A stretch of 64,000 nucleotides of DNA. It comes from Sulfurovum sp. NBC37-1 (GTDB lineage: Bacteria; Campylobacterota; Campylobacteria; Campylobacterales; Sulfurovaceae). Made by a program: the position numbers and the translations under genes. Positions within the stretch are counted from its first letter, which is position 1. Each line of letters opens with the position of its first letter. Below, piece after piece: positions 26,701-44,541 of the stretch. The DNA lies in contig NC_009663.1 in assembly GCF_000010345.1 (NCBI RefSeq), forward strand, positions 868,001-932,000, read 5' to 3'. The notes under the pieces were generated by a model. That model searched no databases and had not been told where the DNA came from. It saw only the letters and a list, made by a program, of their open reading frames with translations.

Positions 26701-27834
26701 TTACCGCTTCCGAAAAATCTCCTTCCCATTCCTATACACCGGATAGGTGTACCCTCCTTTGATAAAGTCCACTTTGGGAGCCGTCAGCTCTTTATAGAGT
26801 TCCGGCCTTCGGTCACGCAGGTAGTTGTATTTTGGTGCCGGATGAGTCATCCCGTAGAAACCCGGGATACAGTCAGCTATGAGCATCGTATCCTGTTCGT
26901 GGTTTGCCGCGACGATGATATCTCCGTGTGGGCCGGTAATGATACTGTTGCCGCGGTAGTGCCACTGGTCTTTGCCTCGTCGTTCATAGCCGGCGCGGTT
27001 GGAGTAGGCGAAGAAAATGTTGTTGGCATAGGCATAAGCAGGGATGAGCGTCTTGGAGATGTCAGGGTAGGGGACATTGCTGCGTTTGCCGTCTGGCAGG
27101 GTATAGTAGTTGTCTGCCGCTGTCGGACCTACGATAAGCTTCGCTCCTTTGAGGGCAAGGATCCTTGAAAGTTCGGGGAATTCACACTCATAGCAGTTGA
27201 GCACGCCGACAGGAAAGCCAAAAAAGTGATAAACCTGGTAGTCGCCGTTGCCAAAGGACCAGTTGTCACGTTCTTGCTGGCCGTAGAGGTGGGTCTTGCG
27301 GTAGCTGTTGAGCAGTTTTCCGTGCTCGTCAATGACAGCGATACTGTCGTAATAAGCCAGAGTCCCATCGGAATGTTTGGCCTTTTCGGCATAGGGTAGG
27401 AGAATAGCAATATTGTTTCTACGCGCCAGTTCTCGCGCCTTGGTGACAGCGGGGCCATCCTTGAACTGTGCGACCTTCTTGACCATCGCAGGACTGAGGG
27501 TATAGCCGGGTATATAAAGCTCCGGGAAAGAGAGTAATTGGATGTGTTTCTCCTTTGCCAGTCGAATGGCGTGCTCCATTCGCTTGAGATTCTTTGCCGT
27601 CGCCCCCTCGCCGCTGACAGCCTGTGCCTGATAGATGCCCAGTCGGATTCCTTTGCCCAATTTCGGCGCTTTTTCATAGACCGAAGTCTTGAACTGGAGC
27701 AACCGATAGCTCTGCATTACAGTCTTGTCGTACTGCGGTGTGCCATCGCATGTTGGGTTTGCTTTGTCTCCGGCTGTTGCAGGGGTAGCGATGACTAATA
27801 GCACAATCATCAAAGTTTTCAATACTCTTTTCAT
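26701..27834 (-). CDS. Exported nitrilase-superfamily amidase
   Basis: A 377-residue carbon-nitrogen hydrolase with a Sec signal peptide (MKRVLKTLMIVLLVIATPATA). The catalytic triad is visible as E105 (SFPELYIPGY), K180 (SYRKTHLYG) and C214 (LNCYECEFPE). The C-terminal block YLRDRRPELYKEL is common in amidase and N-carbamoyl-hydrolase branches of the superfamily. It should cleave an amide or carbamoyl group in the periplasm. Together with the exported decarboxylases it could act on amino-acid amides or on carbamoylated amines; the substrate is not deducible. Single gene. Confidence 0.87.
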   Translation of the reverse strand: MKRVLKTLMIVLLVIATPATAGDKANPTCDGTPQYDKTVMQSYRLLQFKTSVYEKAPKLGKGIRLGIYQAQAVSGEGATAKNLKRMEHAIRLAKEKHIQLLSFPELYIPGYTLSPAMVKKVAQFKDGPAVTKARELARRNNIAILLPYAEKAKHSDGTLAYYDSIAVIDEHGKLLNSYRKTHLYGQQERDNWSFGNGDYQVYHFFGFPVGVLNCYECEFPELSRILALKGAKLIVGPTAADNYYTLPDGKRSNVPYPDISKTLIPAYAYANNIFFAYSNRAGYERRGKDQWHYRGNSIITGPHGDIIVAANHEQDTMLIADCIPGFYGMTHPAPKYNYLRDRRPELYKELTAPKVDFIKGGYTYPVYRNGKEIFRKR

Positions 27835-27870
27835 CTCTTTCCTCCTGATGTGATAAGTGTGAATAGTTCT

Positions 27871-27876
27871 ATTATA
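27871..27876 (-). promoter_or_regulatory. -10 promoter candidate for the exported nitrilase
   Basis: TATAAT on the minus strand, about 37 bp upstream of the nitrilase start. Confidence 0.35.
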
Positions 27877-28079
27877 GCGAGGATTGTTTTATGGAAAGTT
27901 ATACCAAATCCGTAAATAGAGATTCAACACTCCGCATTCGCCCTATATTAGTCTGCGTATATTTTAATAAAGCAGGGAGTATACTATTAAGAAGGGAGCT
28001 TGAATAATTTGCTATGAAAATGCAAGAGATCGATAGAGATTTACAGGTTCCAAGAAAAACACAAATGAAAGGAGACGAA

Positions 28080-29825
28080 ATGTCACAGAAGATACACCCA
28101 TTCATTAAAGAGATCGCCAAAGCAACAAAAGAGGGAGTAGTTACCCGCCGTGACTTTTTTCAGTACGCGGCAGCGTTTGGTATGTCGATTTTTACTGCAG
28201 GAAGTCTCATTGGCCTGTCGGCTTCGGAAATCAGTGCCGATACACATATCGACTGGAAAGATCTTGCTTTGGAAAGTCCTTTTGAGGTTAAAAATATTCT
28301 GATCCAAAAAGCTGAAACGGACTGTTCGAAATCCGGTTGCAGTATAGTGAATGCCGGCAGGGGAAATCCCAATTTCCTCAATACGCTGGTGCGTAAATCA
28401 CTGGCACTTTTAACGCTCTTTGCTGCAGATATGGCTGAGAAGAATTCTAAAATTATAGATGTAGGATATCGGCAAAGCAAAGAAGGAATGTACAATGCGT
28501 TAAAGAAATTTCTGGCAAAACACAAATATGATACGGAAGCCGATTTTTTGGGCAGAAGTATAGAATATGCAAAAAATGAGACAGAAATGGATGCCGATGA
28601 ATTGGTTTATGAACTCATGGATGGCGTGCAGGGAGATTTTTATCCGGATCCCCCCCGTATCTTTCCCGCCACTGAAAAAATCGTCCGAAAATATCTTGAC
28701 AGGGTTGTTTTCTCCAATAAGCCCCCTCAGGGCGATTTCCATCTTTTTGTAACAGAGGGGGCAACGGCGGCCATGATCTATATTTTCAACTCTCTGAGAG
28801 AAAATATGGTATTGCTTCCCGGAGACAAGGTGGCTATTGTGACGCCTATTTTCTCTCCATACCTGGAACTGCCAGTACTGAAAGATTATGGTCTGGAATC
28901 GGTCTATATCCGTGGTGATGAAAAAATGGGTTGGCAGATTCCCGATAGTGAAGTGTCCAAGCTGAAGGACCGGAAAGTCAAGGCACTCTATATGGTCAAC
29001 CCGACCAATCCAACCTCGGTTTCACTGAATGCGGATACGGTCAAGCGTATGGCCGATACAATACGGATGCACAATAAGGATATGATCATTATCTCCGATA
29101 CCGTGTATGCCAGTTTTGTCGATGAATTCAATACTTTTGGTAAAGAACTGCCTGAAAATATTCTGGGTGTTTACTCCTATTCAAAATATTTCGGGGTTAC
29201 CGGCTGGCGGCTTGGTGTTGTGATGGTTCACAAAAACAATGTGGTTGACCGGCTCATCAAGAAGCTTCCAAGATCCAAGCAGGCCCGCTTGGACTTCCGA
29301 TATCGTCTGGTCTCTACCAAGCCGAATGAGATCCCATTCTATGAACGTCTGGAAATAGACAGCCGGCAGGTGGCTCTAGCGCATACGGGAGGACTTTCCG
29401 GTCCGCAGCAGGTAGCGATGTCCCTTTTTTCGCTTTATGAGCTCATCGACGAAAATTACAGCTACAAAAAATCTATTATGGGTATTCTCAAAAAACGATG
29501 GTCTGCACTGTTTGAAGCCTTGGATATGCCAGAGCCGGAAGGAAACAACCTGACACGCTACTATGCCCTGATTGATTTGAAAAAAATGGCGGAAAAGAAA
29601 CACGGCAGCGCGTTCGCGGAGCATCTGGTCAAAACGCATCCTCTTGAATTTTTATTCAGACTGGCGGAAGACCACCATACGGTCTGTCTACCCGGTGGAG
29701 GATTTGCCGGACCGAGGTGGTCACTCAGGGTGGCATTGGCCAACATTGACGAAGAAGATTGTCGGCAGATTGGGCATGCGATTGTCTCCGTGATGGACGG
29801 ATACAAAAAATCCATGCCGGTCTAA
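28080..29825 (+). CDS. Aspartate 4-decarboxylase / aspartate aminotransferase-like, Tat-exported
   Basis: A 581-residue fold-type I PLP enzyme of the bifunctional aspartate aminotransferase / L-aspartate beta-decarboxylase family (aspartate to alanine and CO2). Family landmarks include NAGRGNPNFLN, FVTEGATAAMIYIFNSL, VNPTNPTS, the PLP lysine K369 in YSYSKYFGVTGWRLG, and the C-terminal LPGGGFAGPRWSLRVALAN. The unusual part is the N-terminus: a twin-arginine motif TRRDFFQ about 22 residues in, followed by a hydrophobic stretch (YAAAFGMSIFTAGSLIGLSA). It is therefore predicted to be exported folded by Tat. The ATG at 28080 has AAAGGAGACGAA; an in-frame upstream ATG adds only 22 residues. An amidohydrolase gene follows 57 bp downstream. 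Confidence 0.9.
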   Translation: MSQKIHPFIKEIAKATKEGVVTRRDFFQYAAAFGMSIFTAGSLIGLSASEISADTHIDWKDLALESPFEVKNILIQKAETDCSKSGCSIVNAGRGNPNFLNTLVRKSLALLTLFAADMAEKNSKIIDVGYRQSKEGMYNALKKFLAKHKYDTEADFLGRSIEYAKNETEMDADELVYELMDGVQGDFYPDPPRIFPATEKIVRKYLDRVVFSNKPPQGDFHLFVTEGATAAMIYIFNSLRENMVLLPGDKVAIVTPIFSPYLELPVLKDYGLESVYIRGDEKMGWQIPDSEVSKLKDRKVKALYMVNPTNPTSVSLNADTVKRMADTIRMHNKDMIIISDTVYASFVDEFNTFGKELPENILGVYSYSKYFGVTGWRLGVVMVHKNNVVDRLIKKLPRSKQARLDFRYRLVSTKPNEIPFYERLEIDSRQVALAHTGGLSGPQQVAMSLFSLYELIDENYSYKKSIMGILKKRWSALFEALDMPEPEGNNLTRYYALIDLKKMAEKKHGSAFAEHLVKTHPLEFLFRLAEDHHTVCLPGGGFAGPRWSLRVALANIDEEDCRQIGHAIVSVMDGYKKSMPV

Positions 29826-29882: not shown

Positions 29883-30950
29883 ATGAAATTGTTTAATGTG
29901 AGATTATCGTGGATATTAGTGGTTTGGATGGTTGTTCTGACCTATGGGGTCAATGCTTCAGAGAAAGGATCACACTTAAACGTTGAATCAGAGAAAAGCA
30001 AATATGAAGTGACAGATGCCCATTTGCATTATGTGGACTTTTTGCAGAAAAGTGACGGAATAAAAGATCTTCTTAAGATGATGGACCGTACCGGAGTCAA
30101 GCATGCGATGCTCAATGGATTGGCGGTTGTGAAAAAATGGAATGCTGTTGATCCCGTTCAGCCAAAATATTATCTTGCCGATGATTCACGAAGCTATTGG
30201 TACAGTGCTACGGATGTTATTGTTGCAAGAGCGCTTGAAACCCTTTCTGCATCAGAGCGCAGAAGATTCCATCCGTTTATCTGCGGGTTTAATCCTACGG
30301 ATAGGAATGCTGTTGACCACCTGAAGCGGATGTTTGCCCTGTATCCGGATACCTGGGAAGGGATCGGCGAGATCCTGACTCGGCATGATGATTTGACAGC
30401 ATTGACATACGGTGAGCAGGCCAGGGCAAATCATATCGCATTGGATGCTGTATATGATTTCGCCGCCGAGCATGACCTGCCTGTAACCATTCACAGTGAT
30501 ATCAGTTCGGTATGGGTACACAAGCCGCTCTATCTGGAAGAGATGGAAGAGGCTGTCAAAAACCATCCAAAAACCCGCATAGTCTGGGCACATGCCGGAG
30601 CCAGCCGGCGCATTGTGGTGCCCAATCTGGCATCCATTATGGGACGAATGCTCAAAACATATCCCAATCTCTGGATAGACCTCTCCTGGGTTGTCTATCC
30701 AAACTATGTCGCTCCACATGGAAAACCCAGCAAAGAGTGGGTAGCCTTGGTCGAAGAGTTTCCTGACAGATTTATGATCGGTACAGATAATATCGGTCAT
30801 TATGACAATTATGAACAGACCATAAAACGCTATTATGTTTTTCTGGATGCATTGTCTCCAAAAACCGCTCGTCTTGTGGCTGAGAAAAACTTTTTGAGCA
30901 TTCTGCCTTTGAGAGTACGCAAGAAGATAGATGCTTCTATTGCGAAGTAA
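29883..30950 (+). CDS. Exported amidohydrolase (amidohydrolase_2-like TIM barrel)
   Basis: A 355-residue metal-dependent hydrolase with an N-terminal signal peptide or anchor (LSWILVVWMVVLTYGVNAS). Metal motifs are DAHLHY (HxH at 47-49), VTIHSDIS, VWAHAGASRR and FMIGTDNIGH (final Asp). The PF04909 group includes hydrolases and also non-oxidative decarboxylases such as ACMSD, so a decarboxylase role is possible given the neighbours. It is probably co-transcribed with the Tat-exported aspartate decarboxylase. Its last 118 bp overlap the end of the convergent asparaginase gene. Confidence 0.82.
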   Translation: MKLFNVRLSWILVVWMVVLTYGVNASEKGSHLNVESEKSKYEVTDAHLHYVDFLQKSDGIKDLLKMMDRTGVKHAMLNGLAVVKKWNAVDPVQPKYYLADDSRSYWYSATDVIVARALETLSASERRRFHPFICGFNPTDRNAVDHLKRMFALYPDTWEGIGEILTRHDDLTALTYGEQARANHIALDAVYDFAAEHDLPVTIHSDISSVWVHKPLYLEEMEEAVKNHPKTRIVWAHAGASRRIVVPNLASIMGRMLKTYPNLWIDLSWVVYPNYVAPHGKPSKEWVALVEEFPDRFMIGTDNIGHYDNYEQTIKRYYVFLDALSPKTARLVAEKNFLSILPLRVRKKIDASIAK

Positions 30951-32020
30951 ATATTTTCTTTAGCCTTTGGGGGGTTCATATTGGGCTGTCCAAGTGCTAT
31001 CATCAGGAGAAGCCTGGCTTTGTACGGGCTCAGGTCTCCAGCCAGAAGTGTGCCCGCTTTAAGAAGGGAGGCACCGCCCCCTTCATCACCGTACAGCGGA
31101 TAGACACCTCCGTGCCGAACCCTGCTGGCGATCACCAGAGGTACATTTTTATTTAGAGCATATTTGCAGGCTTTGAATACAGACTGATTTACATTGCCTG
31201 CACCGACGCCAGCCACTACCAATCCTTTGGCACCATGATCGACAGCATATCGGATCAATGATCCGTCATCTCCCGCGTAAGAGTAGATCAACGGAATATC
31301 CGGCAATGTTTTTGGTGCGGACAGCTTTTTTTTGGCAGGTGCCGCATTGTAACCAATGATCCGATTGCCGACAATATAGCCGAGATACCCATGTCCTCCG
31401 GAATCAAATGTCTGCACATTGGTCGTATTGTCTTTACAGACATACCTGGCACTGTTGATGTATTGGTTCATGGTGACGGTCACTCCCCATTTTTCAGCTT
31501 TGGATGAAGCTGCCTGAAATACTGCATTGTAAAGATTGGCAGGGCCGTCAGGGCTCAGGTCGGAGTTGCTGCGCATCGAACCGACGAAAACAACCGGTTT
31601 TTGGGAATGGAGCGTTGTTTCGAGAAAATAAGCTCCCTCGGCCATCGTATCGGTACCGTGGGTTACCACAACGCCTGCTACTTCCGGGCGTCGTAACACA
31701 GCATCAACTTTCAGACTCAAGTTTCTCCATATTTTGGGTGTCATCTGTGAGCTGTCAATATTGCAGAACTCCACTGTTTCAATTTTGGCTATTTTACCAA
31801 GACCCGGTACAGCTTCCAGCAAGTCTTTTCCTGATACAGCCGGAACGACACCACCCGACACAGGGTCATATTTCATAGCAATGGTTCCTCCGGTAGTGAC
31901 CACTACGACTACGGGCAGGATATCTTTTGTGTCCGGTTTTAAATTTTTTTGTGCATGCAGTTGTGTCCACAAAGCGAGCAATGGCAAAATCAATTTTAGC
32001 AGTGAATGGAATTGTCTCAT
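30833..32020 (-). CDS. Type II L-asparaginase, exported
   Basis: A 395-residue periplasmic asparaginase (asparagine to aspartate and ammonia). Signal MRQFHSLLKLILPLLALWTQLHAQ; the two catalytic threonine regions are VVTTGGTIAMKYD and VVTHGTDTMAEGAYFLE; also FVGSMRS and the conserved IALGQPN end. Start follows a perfect AAAGGAGGTAACG. About 39 C-terminal residues beyond the family's usual end are antisense to the amidohydrolase gene, as if the original stop was lost. Its product is the substrate of the exported aspartate decarboxylase. Last gene of the eight-gene minus-strand run 41636-30833. Confidence 0.92.
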   Translation of the reverse strand: MRQFHSLLKLILPLLALWTQLHAQKNLKPDTKDILPVVVVVTTGGTIAMKYDPVSGGVVPAVSGKDLLEAVPGLGKIAKIETVEFCNIDSSQMTPKIWRNLSLKVDAVLRRPEVAGVVVTHGTDTMAEGAYFLETTLHSQKPVVFVGSMRSNSDLSPDGPANLYNAVFQAASSKAEKWGVTVTMNQYINSARYVCKDNTTNVQTFDSGGHGYLGYIVGNRIIGYNAAPAKKKLSAPKTLPDIPLIYSYAGDDGSLIRYAVDHGAKGLVVAGVGAGNVNQSVFKACKYALNKNVPLVIASRVRHGGVYPLYGDEGGGASLLKAGTLLAGDLSPYKARLLLMIALGQPNMNPPKAKENIYFAIEASIFLRTLKGRMLKKFFSATRRAVFGDNASRKT

Positions 32021-32057: not shown

Positions 32058-32993
32058 TTATTTAAAACCGATAGATTTTTCCCACTCTTTCAAATTCATT
32101 TTCTTTAGTTGCCCAAAGCCCTCTTTGGGGATCGCATCTTTCGCCAGTACGACATAAGGGGCAACGGTCAATGCTGTGCCTACCTCACCGGGCTTCATGA
32201 TGACATAGGCATAGCTGATATACGATCGTTCGTACAAAACACTTTGGTCTTTACCGCAGGCAGCAACACTCCAGAGAACAGATTTTCGGTGTTTTTGGAG
32301 AAATGCATCCAAGTCCTTATCATTGGCATTTTTTGTCCAGACTCCGGCATCTTCGATAAACAGAGAGGCATCTTTGGTGCGGTCTTTTGCAATATTGATA
32401 ACAATGTAAGACCAGACACCATATGATTCATTTTTGGCAGCGTCGGGTTCCCCTTTTTTTGGCCGGTACGATGTGACGCTTTTGTTGGCGCAAATGGTAT
32501 GGGCACCGGGAACCAGAGGAAAACGGCGTTTTCTCTCGGTACCAAAGAGCGCTTTACCCGCCTCAATCAAAGGGGCACCGTCATAAACCTTCAGGTCGGA
32601 GCCATCATACTGTTTGACGGTAAAAAGAGGTTTTTCTTTTTTCTCTTTTATCGTTTCGGAAACAGCAAGGTCATACCCCCATATCTGTCCTGCCAGGCCG
32701 GAAAAAGATGAAGCTGTCAGCATATTGATCTGACCGACATAGGCATCATTTGCTTCCGCCCGATCATAGGCGACAATGTTGTCGAGAAGCATATCATCCG
32801 TTTTTTTAACGGTACCGGCTGAGACTTTCAGCACGGATACATAACCAAGACCCTCCGCACCTGGATTTCCATATCCGTCACAATACTGTTTGAATGGGCT
32901 TATGGCATCTTTGTTGATACTCTCCTGTGCCTGGATAGAACTGAAAAGAGTTCCTGTCAGTACACAAACGGTTAAAATAGTAGAAAACTTCAT
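32058..32993 (-). CDS. hdcA: Pyruvoyl-dependent histidine decarboxylase, exported
   Basis: A 311-residue proenzyme of the pyruvoyl histidine decarboxylase family (histidine to histamine and CO2). Strong family blocks are AISPFKQYCDGYGNPGA, YVSVLKVSAGTVKKTDD, YVGQINMLTASSFSGLAGQIWG, GAHTICANKS, LFIEDAGVWTKN and YVIMKPGEVG. The self-cleavage Ser-Ser is at 95-96, matching the known Ser81-Ser82 site, so it should split into beta and alpha chains with an N-terminal pyruvoyl group. Unlike the classical cytoplasmic enzymes, it begins with a Sec signal (MKFSTILTVCVLTGTLFSSIQA). The start follows AAAGGATCAAAG. Its first four bases overlap the stop of the Lnt-like gene. No histidine/histamine antiporter adjoins. 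Confidence 0.93.
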   Translation of the reverse strand: MKFSTILTVCVLTGTLFSSIQAQESINKDAISPFKQYCDGYGNPGAEGLGYVSVLKVSAGTVKKTDDMLLDNIVAYDRAEANDAYVGQINMLTASSFSGLAGQIWGYDLAVSETIKEKKEKPLFTVKQYDGSDLKVYDGAPLIEAGKALFGTERKRRFPLVPGAHTICANKSVTSYRPKKGEPDAAKNESYGVWSYIVINIAKDRTKDASLFIEDAGVWTKNANDKDLDAFLQKHRKSVLWSVAACGKDQSVLYERSYISYAYVIMKPGEVGTALTVAPYVVLAKDAIPKEGFGQLKKMNLKEWEKSIGFK

Positions 32994-34498
32994 CTTTGAT
33001 CCTTTTTTTGTTTTTTGAAATGATTCCAAACTGCCAAGAAAAACAGCAGTATAAGTACAAACATAGCAATATATGCAAGCAAATTGCCGATGTGAGTATA
33101 GAGGGTGTCCGTTCTCTTAACAGGCAGAGAAGCGATCAATATACTCTCATCGTCTCCAAATGCAGTCATAGCTGCACGGATCTGACCGAGATTGTCAAAT
33201 CCCATTGAAGTAGCCTCATTTGCCGATCTGAACAGGGAAAACCCTCCCCCTACAGCGTGAATTCGTGCCATCAGAGTATGCCGTATCAGCATACCGCGCC
33301 AGTCAAGACCGGGGAGCAGAACCAGGTCGACTCCGAGCCTTGCCTGTGTTAACGATATTTGCGGGAAATCGTAATCATAACAGATAGCTCCCGCCATTTT
33401 ACCATATTTTGTCCTGATAGCTTTCAGTGGGGCACGACCGGGAACACTTCCTTCCCCCGGGACGGGGTGGTGCTTGAGATATGTTTCGGCGATGGTACCG
33501 TCATCTCTCAGCCAGGTGAATTTGTTCTTCATCTTATACAGTTCGCTCTGTTCTTCTTTCGGGAGCAATAGAGCATAGGCTGCAACGATTGCAATATGAT
33601 GCTTTTTCGCCAGCCTGGAAAGTGTCCCCAGCAATGCCTTTTCCCCCTTGGTTGAAACGATTGTCGATACTTCTCCCCAGACGGCTATGTCGGCTCCCTT
33701 CGCGGCGGCTTTGCGTGTGAGTTCTATCAGTCTTTGTGTATTCTGCAGAACATCGGGATCTTCGGGGTTTGGCAGTGCCTTGCTTACTGTCTGACCATTC
33801 GTGATGCCGGCAACAAGTATATGCTTGCCTTGGGGAACGGTACTGAGGCGTAAGTCACCCCATATATTCAGTCCAATAAAAATGATGACAAAGAGCACAA
33901 CGGATATTTTTATATTTGCGAAATTTCTCCGGAGAATGAAGAAAGCTCCCAAAACGGCAGCCCAGGACATCAGTGCCGATATGCCCAGAAATCCAAAAAG
34001 TGACGCTGTTTGGATAAGGGGGAGATTATATACCTGTGTATTAGCAAGAGATCCCCATACGCCGAACGGTGTATAAAATGCTTGCAGATATTCCAAGCTT
34101 ACTATAATGGCCGGAAAGGCAATGATGCTGGCAGTGTCATCAGTCCATTTCCGGATATAATCCCATATCAAAAAGGCAAGATAGTATCGTAGGCCTGTCA
34201 CTACCCCAAACATAATGGATACCGGCAAAGAGATCATTATGGGGTCTGATACTGACTTCGTGAATGTCAATACAGCTCCTACAACAAGGGTAAGCAGGAG
34301 CCATAGACGGCTTTTAAACTCATGATAGAGCGTGACATAGAGCAAGAATGGTATAAGCATAAACCAGCCGAATACTCCTGCGCCGCCACGCATATCAGAG
34401 CTAATCATCAAAAAAGAACCGATAATCAGCAATGAACTCCCGTGAAAGAACCGGTTATTTTTCAAAGATGTATAATCTGATTGTATATGGCTGTCCAA
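32990..34498 (-). CDS. Membrane nitrilase, apolipoprotein N-acyltransferase (Lnt)-like
   Basis: A 502-residue protein with about six to seven TM helices in residues 20-215, a periplasmic nitrilase domain (about 228-465), and a final TM (about 472-492), the layout of Lnt. The triad is E276 (VWGEVST), K342 (TYLKHHPVPGEG) and C373 (GAICYDYDFP). The KHHPVPGEG block resembles the KRHLVPFGE of Lnt. It starts with TTG behind AAGGTAGGTG. Its place inside the decarboxylase operon suggests a specialised N-acyltransferase or amidase rather than the housekeeping Lnt. It overlaps the histidine decarboxylase gene by four bases. Confidence 0.8.
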   Translation of the reverse strand: MDSHIQSDYTSLKNNRFFHGSSLLIIGSFLMISSDMRGGAGVFGWFMLIPFLLYVTLYHEFKSRLWLLLTLVVGAVLTFTKSVSDPIMISLPVSIMFGVVTGLRYYLAFLIWDYIRKWTDDTASIIAFPAIIVSLEYLQAFYTPFGVWGSLANTQVYNLPLIQTASLFGFLGISALMSWAAVLGAFFILRRNFANIKISVVLFVIIFIGLNIWGDLRLSTVPQGKHILVAGITNGQTVSKALPNPEDPDVLQNTQRLIELTRKAAAKGADIAVWGEVSTIVSTKGEKALLGTLSRLAKKHHIAIVAAYALLLPKEEQSELYKMKNKFTWLRDDGTIAETYLKHHPVPGEGSVPGRAPLKAIRTKYGKMAGAICYDYDFPQISLTQARLGVDLVLLPGLDWRGMLIRHTLMARIHAVGGGFSLFRSANEATSMGFDNLGQIRAAMTAFGDDESILIASLPVKRTDTLYTHIGNLLAYIAMFVLILLFFLAVWNHFKKQKKDQR

Positions 34499-35308: not shown

Positions 35309-37150
35309 TTACTGATTTCCCTTCATTACCCCATAAGCTTCACCCATCAGCATATGCTTATAGGTATTTGTGTCGTTGGGAGTTTTAGATGCTGTGATTT
35401 CAAATCCTGCTTTGTCTTGAAACAGTATGACAAAATCAGACCCGCCAAAGAGGAAATTTCCAAGCATATCACCCTTTTTATGAACAATACCGGGTCGGAC
35501 ATCCCCTTCGAAATTGACAGAAGAGACCTGAGCCATCCCCATAGGGATCAGTGCTACCAGACCATACTTTCCTGTATCTACCACCACAACCCCTCTGGTT
35601 TGGGTAAACTGCCAGCCTGTGGAGTCTATGGGGGCATATTTGCCTTGCTTTGCATCCCAGACTACTTCCAGTGAGACATTTTTCACAATATTTTTGACCT
35701 CTTTTATCTCTCCTCTCACAGCAAAATGGTAGCGGTGATAGTCGTTGACATCGAGGAAGGTATGTGTCAGAACTCCGTTGGCAAATGCATCTTTGTAGGG
35801 GCTGTCTTCACCAACCAGATCTTTGACACTGTAGTAGGTTGCAAGCTTGACTTTCAATCCGCCTTCTACTTTGATCCTGGAGTCTTTGTCAATAGCCCAG
35901 GTACCCTGAGGGACAGAATCTGCCGGGGCAACGACGATCGATGGATCGGCAGGTGTGGCAATCGGTCTCATTTCGGGAGACTTCAGGTAGCGGCTGAAAA
36001 AGTCGTTGAAAGTTTTCCAGTTGCTTGCGGGTTCATACCATCCGGTATCCAAACCAAATCGTGGGTCCTTATAGAACTCCTCATAGGTTTTTTTACTCCA
36101 AGACTTCTCTGTATCGAGAAACATTCCCCAGTCGTTGGCAAACGCTCTCGTCCAGGTAGAGAAAGGCTCATAGTATTGGAGCGTATTGTTGTAAAGCCCT
36201 TTTCCTTCAAGCTCTGGGAGGGGTTGGTCGATCAGAAAATAGAAGTAACAGAGACTCTGCATAATCTGCTCACGCAGAAGATGCTTGGGGTGCTTGAGAA
36301 CCTCTGACGGAATCAATTCGACAGCTTTGTCAAGATAGGCATAATAGTCATTGAGATTCTGTACAGGATTGGTTTTGGTATCCGGGTTGACGACTTTTGC
36401 CTTTGCGATCGATTTTTCCAAAAGCCTTTTGAGTTCAGGATTCTTTTTTAGCAGAGTGATAAGCTTTTGGGTAATTGGCTTGTGCGCCTGAGCATCTGTT
36501 GATTTTTTGATGGGATCCACATAGATAAAACTAACAAACCCAAGCTGAGATAGCACCATACCGTATTTTTTGGTGATATGCAGAAATTTGATGTTGTATG
36601 TCATATCACCTACCTGTTCCAGATGCCTGATCGACAACTCATGTTTGAGTGATTTTGTCAACTGTGCTTTTGCCTTCTTTCTTACCTCTTCCTGTGCTAC
36701 TCTCTTTTTGTGGTAGACAAATTCATATTCGGCAGCAAAGCCTCCGATTTTTTTGCCGCTTTTAGGATCTTTGGCCCAGACCCGGCCGACACCGGCTACG
36801 ACCGTATCGCCTTTGACGCCGCTGGCTTTTGCCATGATTGATTCCAGTACAGCACCATGGTGAAACTGTTTTTTAGCTTCCTTCAGTGAAATCTCATACG
36901 ATTGGGGAGGAAGCACGGAGGTGTAGTACATCACATTGAAATTTTCTATGCCGGCATCCTGAAGCGCCAGGTCATAAGAGAATGTTTCGTAGGGATCGGG
37001 TGGTATGCCGTCATTGGACTGACCAGCACCGGTTGTGGCAAAATAGGCGGTGGGGATTCTAACCCCCAGCGATGTGTCGGCATATACTACACTCGAACTT
37101 ATCATTCCAATCAGGAAAACGATACCTGTAAACAGTTTTAACTTTTTCAT
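35309..37150 (-). CDS. Exported fusion: pyruvoyl arginine-decarboxylase domain + PSD-like decarboxylase domain
   Basis: A 613-residue exported protein (signal about 1-24, MKKLKLFTGIVFLIGMISSS). Residues about 28-210 match pyruvoyl-dependent arginine decarboxylase: IPTAYFATTGAG, SYDLALQDAGIENFNVM, the pyruvoyl-forming YYTSVLPP (Thr77-Ser78 in place of Ser-Ser), the conserved Glu in AEYEF, and a C-terminal GFVSFIY strand. After a helical linker, residues about 375-585 match the phosphatidylserine decarboxylase family: FNDFFSRYL, VAPADS, DYHRYHFAVRG, DTGKYGLVALIPMGMAQVSSV, and the processing Gly-Ser in FLFGGSDF (570-571). The ATG at 37150 follows AAGGAAAG. Both halves belong to self-processing pyruvoyl families. 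I know of no described fusion of the two. Likely substrates are amino acids rather than lipids. Confidence 0.85.
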   Translation of the reverse strand: MKKLKLFTGIVFLIGMISSSVVYADTSLGVRIPTAYFATTGAGQSNDGIPPDPYETFSYDLALQDAGIENFNVMYYTSVLPPQSYEISLKEAKKQFHHGAVLESIMAKASGVKGDTVVAGVGRVWAKDPKSGKKIGGFAAEYEFVYHKKRVAQEEVRKKAKAQLTKSLKHELSIRHLEQVGDMTYNIKFLHITKKYGMVLSQLGFVSFIYVDPIKKSTDAQAHKPITQKLITLLKKNPELKRLLEKSIAKAKVVNPDTKTNPVQNLNDYYAYLDKAVELIPSEVLKHPKHLLREQIMQSLCYFYFLIDQPLPELEGKGLYNNTLQYYEPFSTWTRAFANDWGMFLDTEKSWSKKTYEEFYKDPRFGLDTGWYEPASNWKTFNDFFSRYLKSPEMRPIATPADPSIVVAPADSVPQGTWAIDKDSRIKVEGGLKVKLATYYSVKDLVGEDSPYKDAFANGVLTHTFLDVNDYHRYHFAVRGEIKEVKNIVKNVSLEVVWDAKQGKYAPIDSTGWQFTQTRGVVVVDTGKYGLVALIPMGMAQVSSVNFEGDVRPGIVHKKGDMLGNFLFGGSDFVILFQDKAGFEITASKTPNDTNTYKHMLMGEAYGVMKGNQ

Positions 37151-37265: not shown

Positions 37266-38543
37266 CTAGTTGCTATGCCAATTCTCTTCTATCCAGTTGA
37301 GAATTTTCTCATTGGATATCATGATAGCTCCCATCTGACAATGCTCTTCAGCACCTTCATCTTTTGTAAAGAGCAGATATGTCTTGGGGCATCTCAGGGC
37401 GTCATAAAGCTCTTTTGCTTGTCCGGGAAGATCTTTATCTCCTTCGGAATCAACCACCAGAGTTTTGCATCGTATCTTTGTTGCCCTCTCTTTCATATTG
37501 TAGGGCTTTAATTTTTTAATTAAGTCCGTCGGAGATTTGGCTCCAAAAGTAAACATACCGTTTGCAAAGAACCAGCCTACATCAACATCTTTGTTCATAA
37601 TTTCCATAATTTCCTTATTGAACTTTATAGATGCCTTTTTGTTGTTGAGAATTTTCTTTATGTCTGGTGGGGATTTTTTGATGACATTTGCATAAAAATC
37701 ATATACTCCTCCATTTGCAACACATAGGTTAATGCGATGCTCGAAAGAGACAGCCCGTGGAGCAAGATAGCCTCCGAAACTAATGCCTATGAGCCCGATC
37801 CTCTTTGGGTTGACTTCTGGAAGAGTCAGAGCAAAATCTACCACAGGTGTCACTACACTTTCCCAGTTTGGACGAAACGGTATCTTCTGTACACGAATCA
37901 CTTCACCCTGTCCCGGTCCTTCAAATAAAAGAACATTGAATTCTCTTTCAACCGCAAGATGACCAATTTCAAAATAGAGCTCTTCTGCTGTGCCGTCAAA
38001 TCCACTATGGATGATCAAAAGTGGTCTCTTTTTGCCGGAGTTGTCCACAAGACAGAGGTAACCTGGCAGAGTAGTTCCCTCAAAGGGTATCTTCACAAAC
38101 TTTATAGGTTTTTTGGAGAGTTTTGCAGCTTTGAGGAAAGTATTACGGCTCTTTTTCCAAGTCTTGACAATCCGTGGATCATTGGGATTAGTATGAAGGA
38201 AAAATTCCGCAGTGCGGTAGTAGTTGGAGGAGCGAAAATATGCCTCTTTTGCACTTATCATGTGCCCTTTTGATAGAAACTTGTCCGCTCTCTTTTCAAG
38301 GCGCTTTGCAGTCGCTAACCACTCTTTGTACCAGCTTTCATTATCGCTTTCCTGAATGCGGCGAACTGTACTCAAACACTCTCCGATATCTGCACCCCCT
38401 GTGCTGCTGTAGCCTATAGTTCTGAGCGTCTGAAAGGAATATTGTGGATCCTTAAAGATGCATTCCACTCCCTGAACGAAAACAGTAGAAAAAAGAATGC
38501 TCAAAGCTAAAAAAAGGATCCGTAAATTTAGCATTATAATCAT
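37266..38543 (-). CDS. Exported alpha/beta hydrolase (FrsA / pseudooxynicotine-hydrolase-like), copy 1
   Basis: A 425-residue serine hydrolase with a signal peptide (LRILFLALSILFSTVFVQG). A helical N-terminal cap region (KGHMISAKEAYFRSSNYYRTAEF) precedes the alpha/beta fold. The nucleophile is S255 in GISFGG, the acid probably lies in VVDSEGDKD, and the His is in GAEEHC. Related cytoplasmic enzymes cleave C-C or ester bonds. It overlaps its upstream paralogue by four bases (ATGA). The pair may have different substrates, since the nucleophile elbows differ (GISFGG versus GISNGG). Confidence 0.82.
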   Translation of the reverse strand: MIIMLNLRILFLALSILFSTVFVQGVECIFKDPQYSFQTLRTIGYSSTGGADIGECLSTVRRIQESDNESWYKEWLATAKRLEKRADKFLSKGHMISAKEAYFRSSNYYRTAEFFLHTNPNDPRIVKTWKKSRNTFLKAAKLSKKPIKFVKIPFEGTTLPGYLCLVDNSGKKRPLLIIHSGFDGTAEELYFEIGHLAVEREFNVLLFEGPGQGEVIRVQKIPFRPNWESVVTPVVDFALTLPEVNPKRIGLIGISFGGYLAPRAVSFEHRINLCVANGGVYDFYANVIKKSPPDIKKILNNKKASIKFNKEIMEIMNKDVDVGWFFANGMFTFGAKSPTDLIKKLKPYNMKERATKIRCKTLVVDSEGDKDLPGQAKELYDALRCPKTYLLFTKDEGAEEHCQMGAIMISNEKILNWIEENWHSN

Positions 38544-39856
38544 TCCTTTGATTGATTCCCAAAGAGATCATCAAGCCAGTCAAAGACCACTTCAGCCATC
38601 AGGGTTCTATTCTCGCCGATACAGTGAGAAGAGGCCCCTTCATTTTCCGGAGTGATCACCAGTGTTTTGTTCTTGGTTCCTACTTTGTCCATAAACTCTT
38701 TTTGCTGCCGTTCAGTCTCTTTGTTGGCATACTCTCCCGCCCCGACAAGATCCAGTACCGGACTGGTAACCTTGGCTGGATCAAACTGAAACCCTTTGTT
38801 GGCTTCGATTTGCCCTTTGACATTTTCAGGGTCAAGCCCCCAGCGCCAAGTCACTGCAGAGGTCACCGCCTTCTTGAACGGCGGCCACTGGTCGATCTGT
38901 TTTTGCGTATCTTTGGAAAAAGGCATCTCTTTGAACATACGGTAGTTGTCGACAACGGCACTGCTGACAATAATTGCCTTGATCCGCTTTTCTACTGTCG
39001 CCGCACGCGGAACGAAGTAGCCGCCGTTACTGATACCGAACACGGCCAGTTGTTCAGGATCTACTTCGGGGAACTTCAAAACAACATCCAAAACAGCTTT
39101 CATCTGGGTTTCGGTATCTTTTCTGAAAAACTCTCCCTGGGCGGGGAGCATTCCCTGGCCGGGCAGGTCCACGGTGATAAAATTGTATCCGCGCTTGATC
39201 GTCTGAGGTTCAATGTAAAAGACAAGGTCCTCCATAAAAGTCTCGCCGCCACCTATCATCAAAAGCGTCTTGCGAGGTTTACCGTCTTTTTTGACGGGGT
39301 GGTAATACCCGGGGAGCTTTGTTTTTTCAAAAGGAACTTCAAAGTAGGTCATTGGAGGGTCGTACAGTTTTCCGGCTTCTTTCATGCAGAAGCGGGTCTT
39401 TTTGCCAAGTGTGTTGAACTTGGGATTGTCCGGCAGTATAGAGACCAGTGCCGTTCTGTAATAATTGGAGGCTTTCAGATACGCTTCACGGGCAGTAGCC
39501 TTATGGCCTTTTTCAAGAGCGGCTTTGGCACGGGACTCTTTCCTCTGAGCCATCTTTTCCCATTCGTTTTGCCAGCTTTTCGGATCGCCATCTGTAATAT
39601 TGCCGGCAGCATAAAATGCTTCTCCAAGTTCGGCACCGCCGTTCGATAAGCTGCCAAGGAGCCACTGAAAAGCGAAATCCATCTCTTCATCTTCAAAATG
39701 GTAACTTACATAGGAACGGTGTGCGTCATAGTTCTCTTTCTGTGCCGATATTGCCGATGCGTCTTTGTTCCTCATAGGAGCCTCCTCTTTGGCATACACC
39801 GAACTGTGCAGTGATGCAAAGAACAGGCAGATACCAAGTGCATTTAAAAACTTCAT
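38540..39856 (-). CDS. Exported alpha/beta hydrolase (FrsA / pseudooxynicotine-hydrolase-like), copy 2
   Basis: A 438-residue paralogue of the next gene, with signal peptide MKFLNALGICLFFASLHSSVYA. The shared cap is KGHKATAREAYLKASNYYRTAL, the nucleophile S276 in GISNGG, and the His in SSHCIGEN. The two are alike along their whole length and arose by tandem duplication, but have diverged far (they align mainly at motifs). It sits 37 bp downstream of the C69 dipeptidase. Confidence 0.82.
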   Translation of the reverse strand: MKFLNALGICLFFASLHSSVYAKEEAPMRNKDASAISAQKENYDAHRSYVSYHFEDEEMDFAFQWLLGSLSNGGAELGEAFYAAGNITDGDPKSWQNEWEKMAQRKESRAKAALEKGHKATAREAYLKASNYYRTALVSILPDNPKFNTLGKKTRFCMKEAGKLYDPPMTYFEVPFEKTKLPGYYHPVKKDGKPRKTLLMIGGGETFMEDLVFYIEPQTIKRGYNFITVDLPGQGMLPAQGEFFRKDTETQMKAVLDVVLKFPEVDPEQLAVFGISNGGYFVPRAATVEKRIKAIIVSSAVVDNYRMFKEMPFSKDTQKQIDQWPPFKKAVTSAVTWRWGLDPENVKGQIEANKGFQFDPAKVTSPVLDLVGAGEYANKETERQQKEFMDKVGTKNKTLVITPENEGASSHCIGENRTLMAEVVFDWLDDLFGNQSKE

Positions 39857-39893: not shown

Positions 39894-41636
39894 TTAATCC
39901 CCCGGGTGCATCTTCTTGGGCTTTTCGTAACGGATCGGACCATTCTTCCACTCGGAGCGTTTGTACCAGGCTTTGGGATAGCCAACTTCCTGTGCCATCT
40001 TCCCCGGTTCATTGACATAACCGTCACTGTATTTGGCTACCAGCTTCCAGGCAAGTTTCCACCAGGTACGATAGACATTCATCGCCGTATTGCGTGAAAA
40101 TTCACTGAGCATTGCTTTGGCTTGTTCCGGATCTTTCTTATAGACTTCAAGAGCAGACTTTTCGATTGCTTTGGTCCCTTCTATGGCCGCAAGTTCCAAC
40201 TCGTTCTGCTTCTCTTTGATGTCCTGGATAATGTAGCTGTATTTGATCGCAGCCCAGTTGGCTACGAAGTTAAAAGCCCACCAGACACTTTCTTGATCAA
40301 ACTTGTCACTGAAACCGGTATAGTACGGCTTCGGCACAGGGTCATGTGCACCTACATAAAAGGGTGTGATAACAGAACTCATTGGCTCATCCGGAGCAAA
40401 CCAAAACAGTCCACCGACAGGGTCAGGCAGCCAACTGCGCGCTTGGGCCACATAGGTATATCCCGAACGGTAAATAGAGAGAGGACGCTCCCAGGCACCT
40501 TTACGTCCGGTCAGTTTGCCTGTATCACCGCTGGCATCCATCGGGCCTGTATAACGATAGGGGTTTTCAAAAGGCCCGGCAGTGATACCCTTGCTTTGAT
40601 CAAATTCCGTCCCCTGATAATAATCTCTATAAAGGTTTATGACATCCTGTACACCCAGTTTTTTATCAGGTTTGATGGAGAAGGGGTACTTCCTGGTAAA
40701 ACCGTCTTTGACCCAAGGGGAGAGTTTGAGTGAAGGTGCGATCTTGGATTGTAGCCTCCAGACACGATGGAGTGAGTAGTAGGGGTGGCTGTACTCTCCT
40801 TCGCTGACAGTACGCAGCCAGTCAAGTTTTCCTTTTTTGGGATTCCACCATTGATGCTTTTTTGCGACATCAAAAAGATTTTTGGAATACATCATATCAG
40901 GATCATTCGGATCGACTTCACGGATACGGAACTCGTTGGCCGCGACGAAGATCTCGCCGTCGGGAACTTTTTTGGCTACCCATAGTCCCTTGCTTTTGTC
41001 CGGGCTGGGTGCCATCTCAAAGACCCATCCCTCTTTGGTATCAGCAACAGGCAGCACTTCCCCCGTACCATAATAGCCATAGGTGTCGATCAGCTCCCCC
41101 ATAAGCTTGATGGCGCATCTGGCTGTTTTGCAGCGCTCCATTGCGACACGAGCCAATTCGGCACTGTAAAATATTCTTTTACCAGGCTCGGGCTCCAGCG
41201 TCACCTTGGAACCATTGGTCGCTTCGCCCATCATCAACTGATGCTCATTCATCAATCCATAGCTGCCATCCATATAGGCATAGGTGTGTGCTACTTGGGG
41301 GATGAAGCCCAGAGGGATGCTTTGGGGCATATCATTGTCCACATAGATAGGTCCTCTATGAGTACCAATATATCGCCTCAGGACATTGGCATTGTATTCC
41401 GGTCTGCTACCCAGTGAAGAGGGATCATAATAAACAGGTCGTGTTGAGCCCTCTTTGTGATCTGCGGCCGGGACATAGACCAGACGGTTATCGAACATTT
41501 CGCTGTCATCAGAGTGCGCGACAAAGACGGAACCGTCCTTGCTGGCTCCCTTTGTGATGATCATTGTAGTGCAGGAGAAGAGAGGGATTGAGCTGAGCAG
41601 TGTGAAGAGAGTCAGCTGTCTGATAGATACTTTCAT
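39894..41636 (-). CDS. Exported C69-family dipeptidase
   Basis: A 580-residue Ntn-hydrolase of peptidase family C69 (PepD/U34 type). The catalytic nucleophile Cys22 (SCTTMIITKGASKDGSVFVAHSDD) directly follows the signal sequence (MKVSIRQLTLFTLLSSIPLFS), so signal cleavage could expose the Cys as N-terminus. Other family blocks are YGLMNEHQLMMGEATNGSK and GWVFEMAP. It should hydrolyse dipeptides in the periplasm, supplying free amino acids to the downstream asparaginase and decarboxylases. First gene of the minus-strand run. The FSC context is also a poor lipobox; lipidation would block the nucleophile's amino group. Confidence 0.87.
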   Translation of the reverse strand: MKVSIRQLTLFTLLSSIPLFSCTTMIITKGASKDGSVFVAHSDDSEMFDNRLVYVPAADHKEGSTRPVYYDPSSLGSRPEYNANVLRRYIGTHRGPIYVDNDMPQSIPLGFIPQVAHTYAYMDGSYGLMNEHQLMMGEATNGSKVTLEPEPGKRIFYSAELARVAMERCKTARCAIKLMGELIDTYGYYGTGEVLPVADTKEGWVFEMAPSPDKSKGLWVAKKVPDGEIFVAANEFRIREVDPNDPDMMYSKNLFDVAKKHQWWNPKKGKLDWLRTVSEGEYSHPYYSLHRVWRLQSKIAPSLKLSPWVKDGFTRKYPFSIKPDKKLGVQDVINLYRDYYQGTEFDQSKGITAGPFENPYRYTGPMDASGDTGKLTGRKGAWERPLSIYRSGYTYVAQARSWLPDPVGGLFWFAPDEPMSSVITPFYVGAHDPVPKPYYTGFSDKFDQESVWWAFNFVANWAAIKYSYIIQDIKEKQNELELAAIEGTKAIEKSALEVYKKDPEQAKAMLSEFSRNTAMNVYRTWWKLAWKLVAKYSDGYVNEPGKMAQEVGYPKAWYKRSEWKNGPIRYEKPKKMHPGD

Positions 41637-41736
41637 TTTTTAGCCTTTCAACCATCTCTGGTAAAACATCACGCGTTTGGATGTCATAGCTTATACTGTA
41701 TGATGATATAGTAGTTTCACAAAATTATTTCTTAAA

Positions 41737-41899: not shown

Positions 41900-41947
41900 T
41901 TAAACTTCAGCATAATAAATGTACACTAATTGAAGGAGGAATGAATT

Positions 41948-43171
41948 ATGAACAGAATATTGAACCGTTTAATCAAGCTAATAGGTATTGCGCTCTTGGC
42001 AAACACCCTATCGCTCTATGCAGCTCATCTGGATGCAAAGAACCCTTGTTATCAGTCGATTAAAAAAATAGATGAAACATACAAAAAGGATAAAGTATTC
42101 AAATTATTAATGGACCAATCTTTTACGCATATGGTTGAAGCTCCGGAAGGCTATATGCGTGGCGGAAACCCCTGGATAGGCAAAAGCTACAAAGACCTGC
42201 CGCCTTTTCTTGAAGAGTGGTGCGAGTTTCTGCCAAAAGCTATAGGGAGTGGGGATGACGGCTTGAAATATATTCAGGAGATGGATATGTTCAGCTATAA
42301 AAACCCTTTTGCCAAAACATTGTTTCAAAGCAAAACAGGAATGAAGCTTTTTGGTAACTATATGAAAGAGTATGGCCACTTCATGGATACACCGGCCTCC
42401 GGAAGATATATTGCCGAATGGCTTAATGATGACAGGATCGAAAAAGAGGATTATGCCTTGCCTGATCCCAAAGCGGATACTGGCGGGTTCAAAACTTTTA
42501 ATCAATTTTTTTCAAGAAGATTGAAAGATCACAAAGAGAGCCGTCCCCAGACGATGCCAAATCGTGACTATGTTATCACAGCACCTACAGACTGCATTAT
42601 CAATTCTATTCCCCAGGTTTTGATCGATGAAAACACACTGATTGCAACCAAGGGACACCAGAAACTCAATCTCAAACAGATGTTTGATGATTCGAGATAC
42701 TATAAAAAGTTTTTGGGCGGTACGGCAGTATCATGTGTCCTGATGCCAAATACCTATCACCACTACCATTCACCCATAGATGGAAAGATAGTTGAATCCA
42801 AAATTATCAGGGGTGCCCTGTTGGGCATGGACGACTTCCCCTCCTTTGTGCCAAAATACGGCAATGTCGGCTATTACGGTACGGATTTCAATCAGTTCAG
42901 CAGCTATAAACGGGGATACTTTATCGGAGATACCGGTAAATACGGATATGTCGGCATGGTGGCAGTCGGCTTGAGCAATATCGGTTCTATCGTTTTCAAT
43001 AAGAAGTATAAAAATATGACCAGGCCGGTTCCCGTCAAAAGAGGGGATGAATTAGGTTATTTTCTGTATGGAGGATCACTCTTCATAATGTTCTTTGAAA
43101 AAGGGAAGTTCAAATCGGACGCCATCAGAGTCCGGCTCGGAAATCAGATAGGTACTTTTGATACTCCATGA
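41948..43171 (+). CDS. Exported phosphatidylserine-decarboxylase-like pyruvoyl enzyme
   Basis: A 407-residue PSD-family protein with a Sec signal (LIKLIGIALLANTLSLYAA). Family marks are FNQFFSRRLKDHKESRP, VITAPTDC, NTYHHYHSPIDG (270-279), DTGKYGYVGMVAVGLSNIGSI, and the processing Gly-Ser in FLYGGSLF (G376-S377), where cleavage would create the pyruvoyl group. True PSDs face the cytoplasm; this one is predicted periplasmic and has a long extra N-terminal region (30-175). Related PSD-like enzymes, such as PsiD in Psilocybe, decarboxylate amino acids. The stop overlaps the start of the porin gene by four bases, so the two are translationally coupled. Confidence 0.87.
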   Translation: MNRILNRLIKLIGIALLANTLSLYAAHLDAKNPCYQSIKKIDETYKKDKVFKLLMDQSFTHMVEAPEGYMRGGNPWIGKSYKDLPPFLEEWCEFLPKAIGSGDDGLKYIQEMDMFSYKNPFAKTLFQSKTGMKLFGNYMKEYGHFMDTPASGRYIAEWLNDDRIEKEDYALPDPKADTGGFKTFNQFFSRRLKDHKESRPQTMPNRDYVITAPTDCIINSIPQVLIDENTLIATKGHQKLNLKQMFDDSRYYKKFLGGTAVSCVLMPNTYHHYHSPIDGKIVESKIIRGALLGMDDFPSFVPKYGNVGYYGTDFNQFSSYKRGYFIGDTGKYGYVGMVAVGLSNIGSIVFNKKYKNMTRPVPVKRGDELGYFLYGGSLFIMFFEKGKFKSDAIRVRLGNQIGTFDTP

Positions 43172-44541
43172 GATATATGGCAATTGGGGGACTGCTTGCA
43201 GGAGGGGCAATTTTCCTGTCAGCCGGTGATACATTATCATCTGCCTTTGAAGAGACTGTATTCAAAGGGCAGTTACGCTCCTACATGATGAAGAGGGGGT
43301 ATGATGAACTGGTAGAGGACTCCATGGGTATTTTTAAAGTACGACACTCATCTCACAAAGCTTCCAATGCAATAGGTGGATACTTTACGTTTGAGACGGG
43401 TTCTTTCTATCATTTGAGTGCCGGAGCCACTTTTTATACATCACAACCCCTTTTTCATAATCCGCCAAGTGAAGGCGGACTTCAACTGCTAAAAGATGAT
43501 CAGAGTGGTTACAGTGTCCTGGGTGAAGCATTTGTAAAATGGGCATATGGCGAGACAGTACTCAAGGTGGGAAGACAACGATTGAATGAATATCAGTTTT
43601 TGTCAGACAATGATATCCGTATGACACCTTATACGTATGAAGCGGTGATCCTGGAGAACAGGGATTATGAAAATATTACATTGCGTGCAGCTATCGTATC
43701 TGGTGTCAAGACGTTGGTTTCCACAACATATATAGATTTTGTCAACGCATCTAAAGATCTTCTCAAAGAGGAAACTGTTGACAGGAATCCGATACGGGGT
43801 GACTACAATCCGGCTCATTATGACAGCAATGGAAACTACATAGGGCCCCCAAAGAACCTTTATTTAGCTTCGATAGCCTATAAAGAGAAACAAACGGATC
43901 TGGAACTTTGGAACTATTATGTATCGGATTTTGTCAATTTTGTATATGCTGTCGGCTCTTATACTTTTCAAGCAGGTCGTTTTATCAATAGTCTCGGAGT
44001 TCAGTTTGTCAAGCAGGACGATGTCGGAGCGCATGTTGCCGGCAGTATCGATACCTATAGTTACGGTGCCAAACTGACAAGTGTCTATGATACATTTACT
44101 TTTACTTATGCGTTCAATAAAACAAAATATGATGAAAATTCTCTGGACGGCGGCAGCATTATCGATATGTGGGGTGCCAACCAACTTTACAGTGGTTTGA
44201 TGTATAACGGAGCCGACCAGGGAGGCACAATAAGCAATGTCATCACCGTGGAATATGATTTTCCGTTTTACGGCCTGAACTTCTCACTGTATGCCGGTAA
44301 ATTTGATCTGCCAAACAAATTGACAGATATTTTTGCTGATCAGGATAATCATGAATACGATATGATCATAAAATACAGACCCGAATGGAATAAGAAACTA
44401 CAGTTCAAAATAGAAGCCGCCTATATCGATTTTGATACAAATTATGATTTCAGAGCCTATGAAGATCTGCACGGATTTAATTTTCTTCATGTCTATGATG
44501 ATATTACAGACATGAGGTTTATTGTCAATTATTCTTTTTAG
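43168..44541 (+). CDS. Outer-membrane porin (OprD/Opr-like)
   Basis: A 457-residue barrel protein: signal region MRYMAIGGLLAGGAIFLSAG, early FKGQLRSYMMKRG, then many amphipathic strands (ATFYTSQPLF, LKVGRQRLNEYQFLSDNDIRM, TDLELWNYYVSDF) and a C-terminal FIVNYSF. The pattern fits the substrate-specific Opr/OprD porins of Campylobacterota. ATGA overlap with the PSD-like gene suggests that it brings the decarboxylase's substrate through the outer membrane or lets the product out. Confidence 0.82.
   Translation: MRYMAIGGLLAGGAIFLSAGDTLSSAFEETVFKGQLRSYMMKRGYDELVEDSMGIFKVRHSSHKASNAIGGYFTFETGSFYHLSAGATFYTSQPLFHNPPSEGGLQLLKDDQSGYSVLGEAFVKWAYGETVLKVGRQRLNEYQFLSDNDIRMTPYTYEAVILENRDYENITLRAAIVSGVKTLVSTTYIDFVNASKDLLKEETVDRNPIRGDYNPAHYDSNGNYIGPPKNLYLASIAYKEKQTDLELWNYYVSDFVNFVYAVGSYTFQAGRFINSLGVQFVKQDDVGAHVAGSIDTYSYGAKLTSVYDTFTFTYAFNKTKYDENSLDGGSIIDMWGANQLYSGLMYNGADQGGTISNVITVEYDFPFYGLNFSLYAGKFDLPNKLTDIFADQDNHEYDMIIKYRPEWNKKLQFKIEAAYIDFDTNYDFRAYEDLHGFNFLHVYDDITDMRFIVNYSF

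Follow-up and report, generated by a model that had tools for sequence, protein, structure and literature searches.

In textbooks, amino-acid decarboxylases work in the cytoplasm and are of value through their coupling to an antiporter, and the question raised here is why several genes of these families in the deep-sea vent bacterium Sulfurovum sp. NBC37-1 should carry export signals and lack such a partner. The genes form an island at 26.7-44.5 kb of a 64,000-nucleotide stretch (the window; positions 868001-932000 of the single-contig 2,562,277-bp genome). A first-pass annotation had pointed out four exported proteins of decarboxylase families in this interval: an aspartate decarboxylase (AspD) with a twin-arginine (Tat) signal and, with Sec signals, a pyruvoyl histidine decarboxylase (HDC), a fusion of a pyruvoyl arginine decarboxylase (ArgDC) with a domain of the phosphatidylserine decarboxylase (PSD) superfamily, and a PSD-like protein, called PSD407 here. 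In Pfam and NCBIfam searches all genes it named were recovered where it had placed them and in the families it had given (Table 1), and the four decarboxylase-family proteins scored above Pfam/NCBIfam thresholds and carried signals. The observation is real and beyond chance, its location and chemistry being well supported by sequence, and the locus is best read as a periplasmic amino-acid decarboxylation module that would work without an antiporter (probability about 0.6).

Export signals were called by a crude signal-peptide rule, supplemented by eye, the baseline being 296 open reading frames (ORFs) drawn from 400 kb of this genome. By the rule, 8 of 13 island ORFs had signals, relative to 54 of the 296 sampled ORFs (18%; binomial P 6.6e-4). 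Three signals missed by the rule were clear by eye (the Tat motif TRRDFFQ of AspD, the C69 peptidase and PSD407), and with both approaches all 11 soluble or outer-membrane island proteins bear export signals. Start codons were chosen by Shine-Dalgarno-like sequences (AspD Met23 at 28080, HDC ATG at 32993, fusion Met12 at 37150), and ribosome sites stand before exactly those starts that yield signals of normal length, of Sec type in HDC and the fusion and twin-arginine in AspD. In the C69 peptidase the signal ends directly before Cys22 (SCTT at 21), presumably the N-terminal nucleophile. The export route follows the cofactor: AspD, which depends on pyridoxal phosphate (PLP) and must fold around it in the cytoplasm, would for that reason use Tat, and the pyruvoyl enzymes would use Sec because they generate their cofactor from their own serine; such a fit would be hard to account for were the signals accidental. 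With TatC encoded in the genome and export retained in orthologues (see below), the periplasmic location proposed in the first-pass annotation is well supported. Most of the additional hydrolases that it listed as exported are so; the Lnt-like nitrilase is an integral membrane protein, as is the neighbouring 242-residue protein.

HDC exceeded the cut-off of its NCBIfam model (TIGR00541, 415.6 bits against 346.65). Alignments with 1hq6 and homologues showed that its TASSFS self-cleavage site (Ser-Ser) is kept and that the active-site residues of the Lactobacillus enzyme (Y62, D63, E66, F83, K155 and E197 in Lactobacillus 30a numbering) are present. AspD likewise passed (TIGR03801, 585.8 bits against 435.1), 516 residues aligning with a solved aspartate beta-decarboxylase (2zy5), including the PLP-lysine segment SKYFGVTGWRLG. 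Within the fusion, ArgDC occupies about 36536-37057 and the PSD-superfamily domain about 35336-36010. The ArgDC half scored 100.3 against a gathering score of 22.7 for PF01862 and keeps as its processing site the FNVxxYTS segment common to cytosolic homologues, and the fusion also has an FGGSD processing site. From these matches we infer the activities and substrates of the decarboxylases.

Among the genes of the 26.7-44.5 kb interval no antiporter was found, and the two APC permeases of the genome are distant from the island and far under antiporter cut-offs. In the HDC loci surveyed below, none of 10 exported HDCs had an APC antiporter within 4 kb, whereas 37 of the 72 cytosolic ones did (P 0.0017, kinship ignored); close to one exported HDC (L022) there is an APC-type permease that does not score as an antiporter. 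The absence of cognate antiporters, claimed in the first-pass annotation, is thus well supported within the interval, but a row of genes 12 kb away (56.6-60.8 kb), coding for an exported glutaminase, another OprD porin and an AspT-family antiporter, had been overlooked. This antiporter does not reach the AspT equivalog cut-off (TIGR03802, 438.6 against 546.95) and lies 29 kb from AspD.

Known systems share the enzymes of the island and differ in their setting. Three-component systems of HDC, ArgDC and one antiporter have been described, in which histidine decarboxylation is placed in the cytoplasm and an antiporter is therefore necessary; the survey concerned tallied solely HDCs adjoining antiporters (PMC8465708). 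The window HDC has the family, catalytic residues and self-cleavage site of hdcA-hdcP systems and, as in the cytosolic HDC-ArgDC-antiporter systems of Bacteroides, is accompanied by a pyruvoyl ArgDC, but its Sec signal and the lack of an adjacent antiporter set it apart from the cytoplasmic arrangement. (Close to a Bacteroides HDC locus, L072 15074-19609, a Cas9-like protein of 1511 residues was recognized by eye.) AspD matches the enzyme of the AspD-AspT system over its full length, but it has a Tat signal and no AspT beside it; at 59 kb, the AspT-family protein stands with the glutaminase. The chlamydial AaxABC system, whose AaxB is cleaved at Ser53, also combines a pyruvoyl ArgDC with an outer-membrane porin, and a Ser follows a Thr at the expected cleavage site in both; AaxB is, however, paired with the antiporter AaxC, while the window ArgDC bears an export signal and is joined to a PSD-superfamily domain in one protein (PMC2720952).

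If substrate and product both stay outside the inner membrane, an antiporter would be unnecessary. Peptides and amino acids would enter through the OprD porins, the C69 peptidase and other exported hydrolases may liberate amino acids, asparaginase would convert Asn to Asp and ammonia, and AspD, exported by Tat, would then convert Asp to Ala and CO2. Histamine would come from HDC and agmatine from the ArgDC half of the fusion; further amino acids would be decarboxylated by the two PSD-superfamily enzymes. The PLP enzyme would leave the cytoplasm folded and the pyruvoyl enzymes unfolded, making their cofactor outside. Decarboxylation at this site would remove no protons from the cytoplasm and serve no antiporter-built ion gradient; since periplasmic placement removes the coupling, the decarboxylases would have to serve another purpose. 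They would consume periplasmic protons, with amines and CO2 remaining outside, and asparaginase, the glutaminase at 56.6 kb and the nitrilase-type amidases would contribute ammonia. Because every reaction of the set raises pH (decarboxylation takes up H+, deamidation frees ammonia), raising the periplasmic pH is tentatively favoured as the most likely use, though at well below even odds. Sulfurovum produces acid by sulfur oxidation, and local alkalinization would be the simplest common purpose for an acid-making sulfur oxidizer. Supply of CO2 for autotrophy, the weakest of the proposed uses on stoichiometric grounds, is possible but probably minor. The genome encodes a signal-bearing, exported alpha-carbonic anhydrase; at L155 (3373-6507, same genome) such an enzyme, a small exported protein and a SulP-type transporter (by eye) lie together.

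The main rival to a role in pH is periplasmic nutrient salvage, in which peptides and amides would be split for nitrogen and carbon, alanine, ammonia and amines imported, and peptides brought in through the transporter of Dpp/Opp type located at 47-53 kb. Asparaginase, glutaminase, nitrilase, C69 peptidase and a peptide ABC transporter are all present in the region, but decarboxylation of His and Arg would yield amines, which are poorer nutrients, and the window showed no genes for amine catabolism; salvage is rated unlikely. Less probable again is a release of histamine, agmatine and other amines to neighbours or a host as signals or deterrents: signal-bearing enzymes would free amines straight outside the inner membrane, but the genomes with exported HDCs are labelled Thiodictyon, Chlorobiaceae, Lentisphaerae and Nitrospira, with no host in common, and a literature link was not found.

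The proposed scheme includes the two PSD-superfamily proteins, which the first-pass annotation had named PSD-like; a lipid function did not emerge from the searches, and the name overlooks their proximity to amino-acid decarboxylases. Both domains retain a GGS and a YHxxH segment, and both scored below the cut-off for phosphatidylserine decarboxylase (TIGR00163, 66.8 and 71.9 against 111.75). A profile of PSD407 and its orthologue matched PsiD tryptophan decarboxylase at 3.8e-12 and E. coli PSD at 1.7e-8; a profile of the fusion PSD domain matched a PsiD-like chain (9jer) and E. coli PSD equally. The predicted structure of the fusion (mean pLDDT, a per-residue model confidence, 38.8) was not used. 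The PSD407 model (mean pLDDT 64.7) gave Z scores of 13.5 with Aspergillus oryzae arginine decarboxylase, 13.2 with PsiD and 9.0 with E. coli PSD, aligning 271-288 residues with the Aspergillus ArgDC and PsiD structures (Z 13.0-13.5) and 135 with E. coli PSD. The two proteins appear to be no closer to the lipid enzyme than to amino-acid decarboxylases such as PsiD and the Aspergillus ArgDC. The arrangement of PsiD and the PSD-like Aspergillus ArgDC (8x4q, 8zia, 9jer, 9jf5) appears to recur over most of the PSD407 model, but PSD407 is bacterial, exported, only about 18% identical and without a PSDC match. With PSD, the window proteins share the catalytic domain and the G-S self-cleavage site, and they differ from it in the sub-threshold scores and in an apparent additional N-terminal helical region and a signal peptide. 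A role unconnected with amino acids, in which they would act on lipids and remodel phosphatidylserine at the periplasmic face, would agree with the PS_Dcarbxylase Pfam domain in both and with the even fit of the fusion profile; it is nevertheless improbable given those scores, a helical region of the PSD407 model that appears to fit amino-acid decarboxylases and not PSD, and a separate PSD gene of canonical length at genome position 1105738.

Relatives of the two proteins were found in other genomes. Stand-alone orthologues of the C-terminal half of the fusion (42-63% identity) have a signal in five of five genomes (L112, L162, L163, L164, L165), and PSD407 orthologues (52-55% identity) in two of two (L114, L166); the ArgDC fusion itself was seen in the window alone. 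The PSDC domain is present in relatives L115, L116 and L013, of which L116 (Sec-like) and L115 (twin-arginine start MSKNLSRREFNKLL) are exported. On the Enterobacter plasmid pUPC1 (L013, 6599-41202) the PsiD-type relative adjoins an amino-acid/polyamine antiporter. With aspT-aspD, cadBA and evgA nearby, the stretch forms an acid-resistance-like region of a conjugative plasmid; this context suggests amino-acid substrates. In another genome of the same order (G064; L012 9760-13078), homologues of a PSD-superfamily decarboxylase and of protein-arginine deiminase (PAD) are neighbours.

Within Campylobacterota the set is almost confined to this genome: HDC was found in 1 of 397 genomes and AspD in 1 of 249, and among 100 relatives the full fusion occurred nowhere else. 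Vertical inheritance within the phylum was rejected, no shared island occurring in these genomes, and the island was likely acquired by transfer. An IS630-like transposase ORF (by eye) is located at 23464-24132, 2.5 kb left of the island. A single-protein HDC query of genome contigs gave no match, and the wider survey was done with an alignment of five HDCs against 84,980 species, which yielded 106 relatives (80 kept), with plasmid loci added. Exported HDCs were found at 10 further loci spread over several phyla (L016, L019, L021, L022, L023, L063, L071, L078, L085, L097); several of their signals had escaped the rule and were called by eye. Placing the exported label on the HDC tree takes three changes, at least two of them forced by well-supported branches, and HDC export would therefore have been gained or lost more than once. 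In a metagenome-assembled genome of Planctomycetota (L063), an exported HDC, a Tat-exported AspD (MNRRDFGAVSLG; 53% identical, 623 bits) and C69 stand side by side, followed by an exported phospholipase-B-like protein; of the exported C69 protein, which is interrupted by a frameshift or an assembly error, the N-terminal part is present. No other locus comes closer to a conserved island. An intact ArgDC gene was not found in this Planctomycetota genome, which has a C-terminal remnant of a pyruvoyl ArgDC (L113 8360-8860, 53% identical). Other AspDs, as far as inspected, have no Tat extension (plasmid matches mostly begin at query residue 68-88; none in L130). The conserved neighbourhood expected from the first-pass annotation is seen as the exported trio of L063; in other genomes the exported decarboxylases are either scattered over the genome or single. 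Exported PSD-like proteins co-occurred with exported HDC in 2 of 9 genomes and in none of 18 controls (P about 0.10, PSD-like alone); a P of 0.029, obtained on including the AspD genome, was not relied on since AspD had been searched in three controls only. That the N-terminal extensions are non-functional and the enzymes operate in the cytoplasm is very improbable, as every soluble gene of the block has an extension, orthologues in other phyla bear differing yet equally signal-like sequences and cytosolic relatives have none, even if the signals were called by crude rule and visual judgement.

Several results weigh against a periplasmic decarboxylation module. The ArgDC half is under the cut-offs of the NCBIfam equivalogs TIGR00286 (49.6 against 106.95) and NF009064 (55.3 against 207). 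No PSDC domain (PF12588), a PsiD-type feature, was found in window proteins at E 10, and PSD407 and the fusion were therefore not classed as PsiD-type. Among cytosolic HDCs, 35 of 72 likewise have no nearby antiporter, and the contrast with exported HDCs takes no account of relatedness. The neighbourhood is conserved in a single distant genome only, which is thin; the pH role is argued purely from chemistry; and the alpha-carbonic anhydrase is not special to the island.

The families themselves are already known; what is new is the compartment, the absent antiporter and the ArgDC-PSD fusion. A literature search on periplasmic or Tat-exported decarboxylases, with most subscription papers outside its coverage, returned nothing on point. 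In a broader and still speculative reading, well short of even odds, amino-acid decarboxylation would have shifted to the periplasm, by a route matched to the cofactor, in several Gram-negative lineages unrelated to one another (vent Campylobacterota, purple sulfur bacteria, Planctomycetota, and deltaproteobacterial and Lentisphaerae-type genomes), for antiporter-free control of periplasmic and not cytoplasmic pH; the enzymes would include exported bacterial amino-acid decarboxylases of the PSD superfamily. The finding implies that a decarboxylase gene lacking an antiporter is not necessarily defective or incomplete, and it widens the range of places in which histamine and other biogenic amines can be made. 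Among bacterial PSD-superfamily enzymes that are exported and carry a lipid-enzyme annotation, some may be amino-acid decarboxylases.

Table 1. Genes of the decarboxylase island and related genes outside it (window positions).
Feature	Position	Strand	Evidence and remarks
Exported nitrilase-superfamily amidase	26701..27834	-	CN_hydrolase 1.5e-45; Sec signal MKRVLKTLMIVLLVIATPATA
Tat-exported PLP aspartate 4-decarboxylase (AspD)	28080..29825	+	TIGR03801; Tat motif; longest ORF begins 28014
Exported Amidohydro_2-family protein	29883..30950	+	PF04909 4e-12; signal
Exported type II-like asparaginase	30833..32020	-	PF00710 1.8e-59
Sec-exported pyruvoyl histidine decarboxylase (HDC)	32058..32993	-	PF02329 1.4e-132; TIGR00541; signal MKFSTILTVCVLTGTLFSSIQA
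Lnt-like membrane nitrilase, multiple transmembrane segments	32990..34498	-	LNT_N + CN_hydrolase
Small integral membrane protein, 242 aa, 4 transmembrane segments	34509..35237	-	DUF6796 under cut-off
Sec-exported ArgDC/PSD fusion	35309..37150	-	PF01862 + PF02666
Exported FrsA-like alpha/beta hydrolase 1	37266..38543	-	PF06500; signal
Exported FrsA-like alpha/beta hydrolase 2	38540..39856	-	PF06500 3.7e-13; signal; overlaps FrsA-like 1
Exported C69 peptidase	39894..41636	-	PF03577 6.9e-57; opens minus-strand run
PSD407, Sec-exported PSD-superfamily decarboxylase	41948..43171	+	PF02666 7.4e-40; FLYGGS site
OprD-family porin	43168..44541	+	PF03573 2.1e-9; 4-bp overlap with PSD407
Exported glutaminase A, outside island	56559..57635	+	NF009020 441.6 > cut-off 395; signal
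Second OprD-like porin, outside island	57646..59082	+	PF03573 2.5e-6
AspT-family antiporter, outside island	59114..60784	+	Asp-Al_Ex 1.7e-75

The minus-strand run is ordered C69, FrsA-like 2, FrsA-like 1, fusion, 242-residue membrane protein, Lnt-like nitrilase, HDC and asparaginase, with intergenic gaps of at most about 80 bp, or overlaps. PSD407 and the OprD porin diverge from the C69 gene on the plus strand, and AspD and the Amidohydro_2 protein, separated by 57 bp, are possibly co-transcribed; co-transcription within the runs is suggested by coordinates. The nitrilase gene is isolated at the left end of the island, its nearest NCBIfam model being AguB, far under cut-off (123.5 against 410). 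The asparaginase scored 283 bits against a TIGR00520 cut-off of 314, and the Lnt-like nitrilase missed the lnt equivalog threshold (81 against 133). Scans for promoters and terminators gave results close to chance, and Rfam and tRNA searches gave no matches. The glutaminase, porin and AspT-like row (56559-60784) may be a related periplasmic unit for amides and amino acids (Gln to Glu). A complete Dpp/Opp-type peptide ABC transporter is encoded just downstream of the island (47386-52649), and a fused hydantoinase/5-oxoprolinase-like protein of 1197 residues (8460-12053, by eye), another amide hydrolase, lies elsewhere in the window and has no signal.

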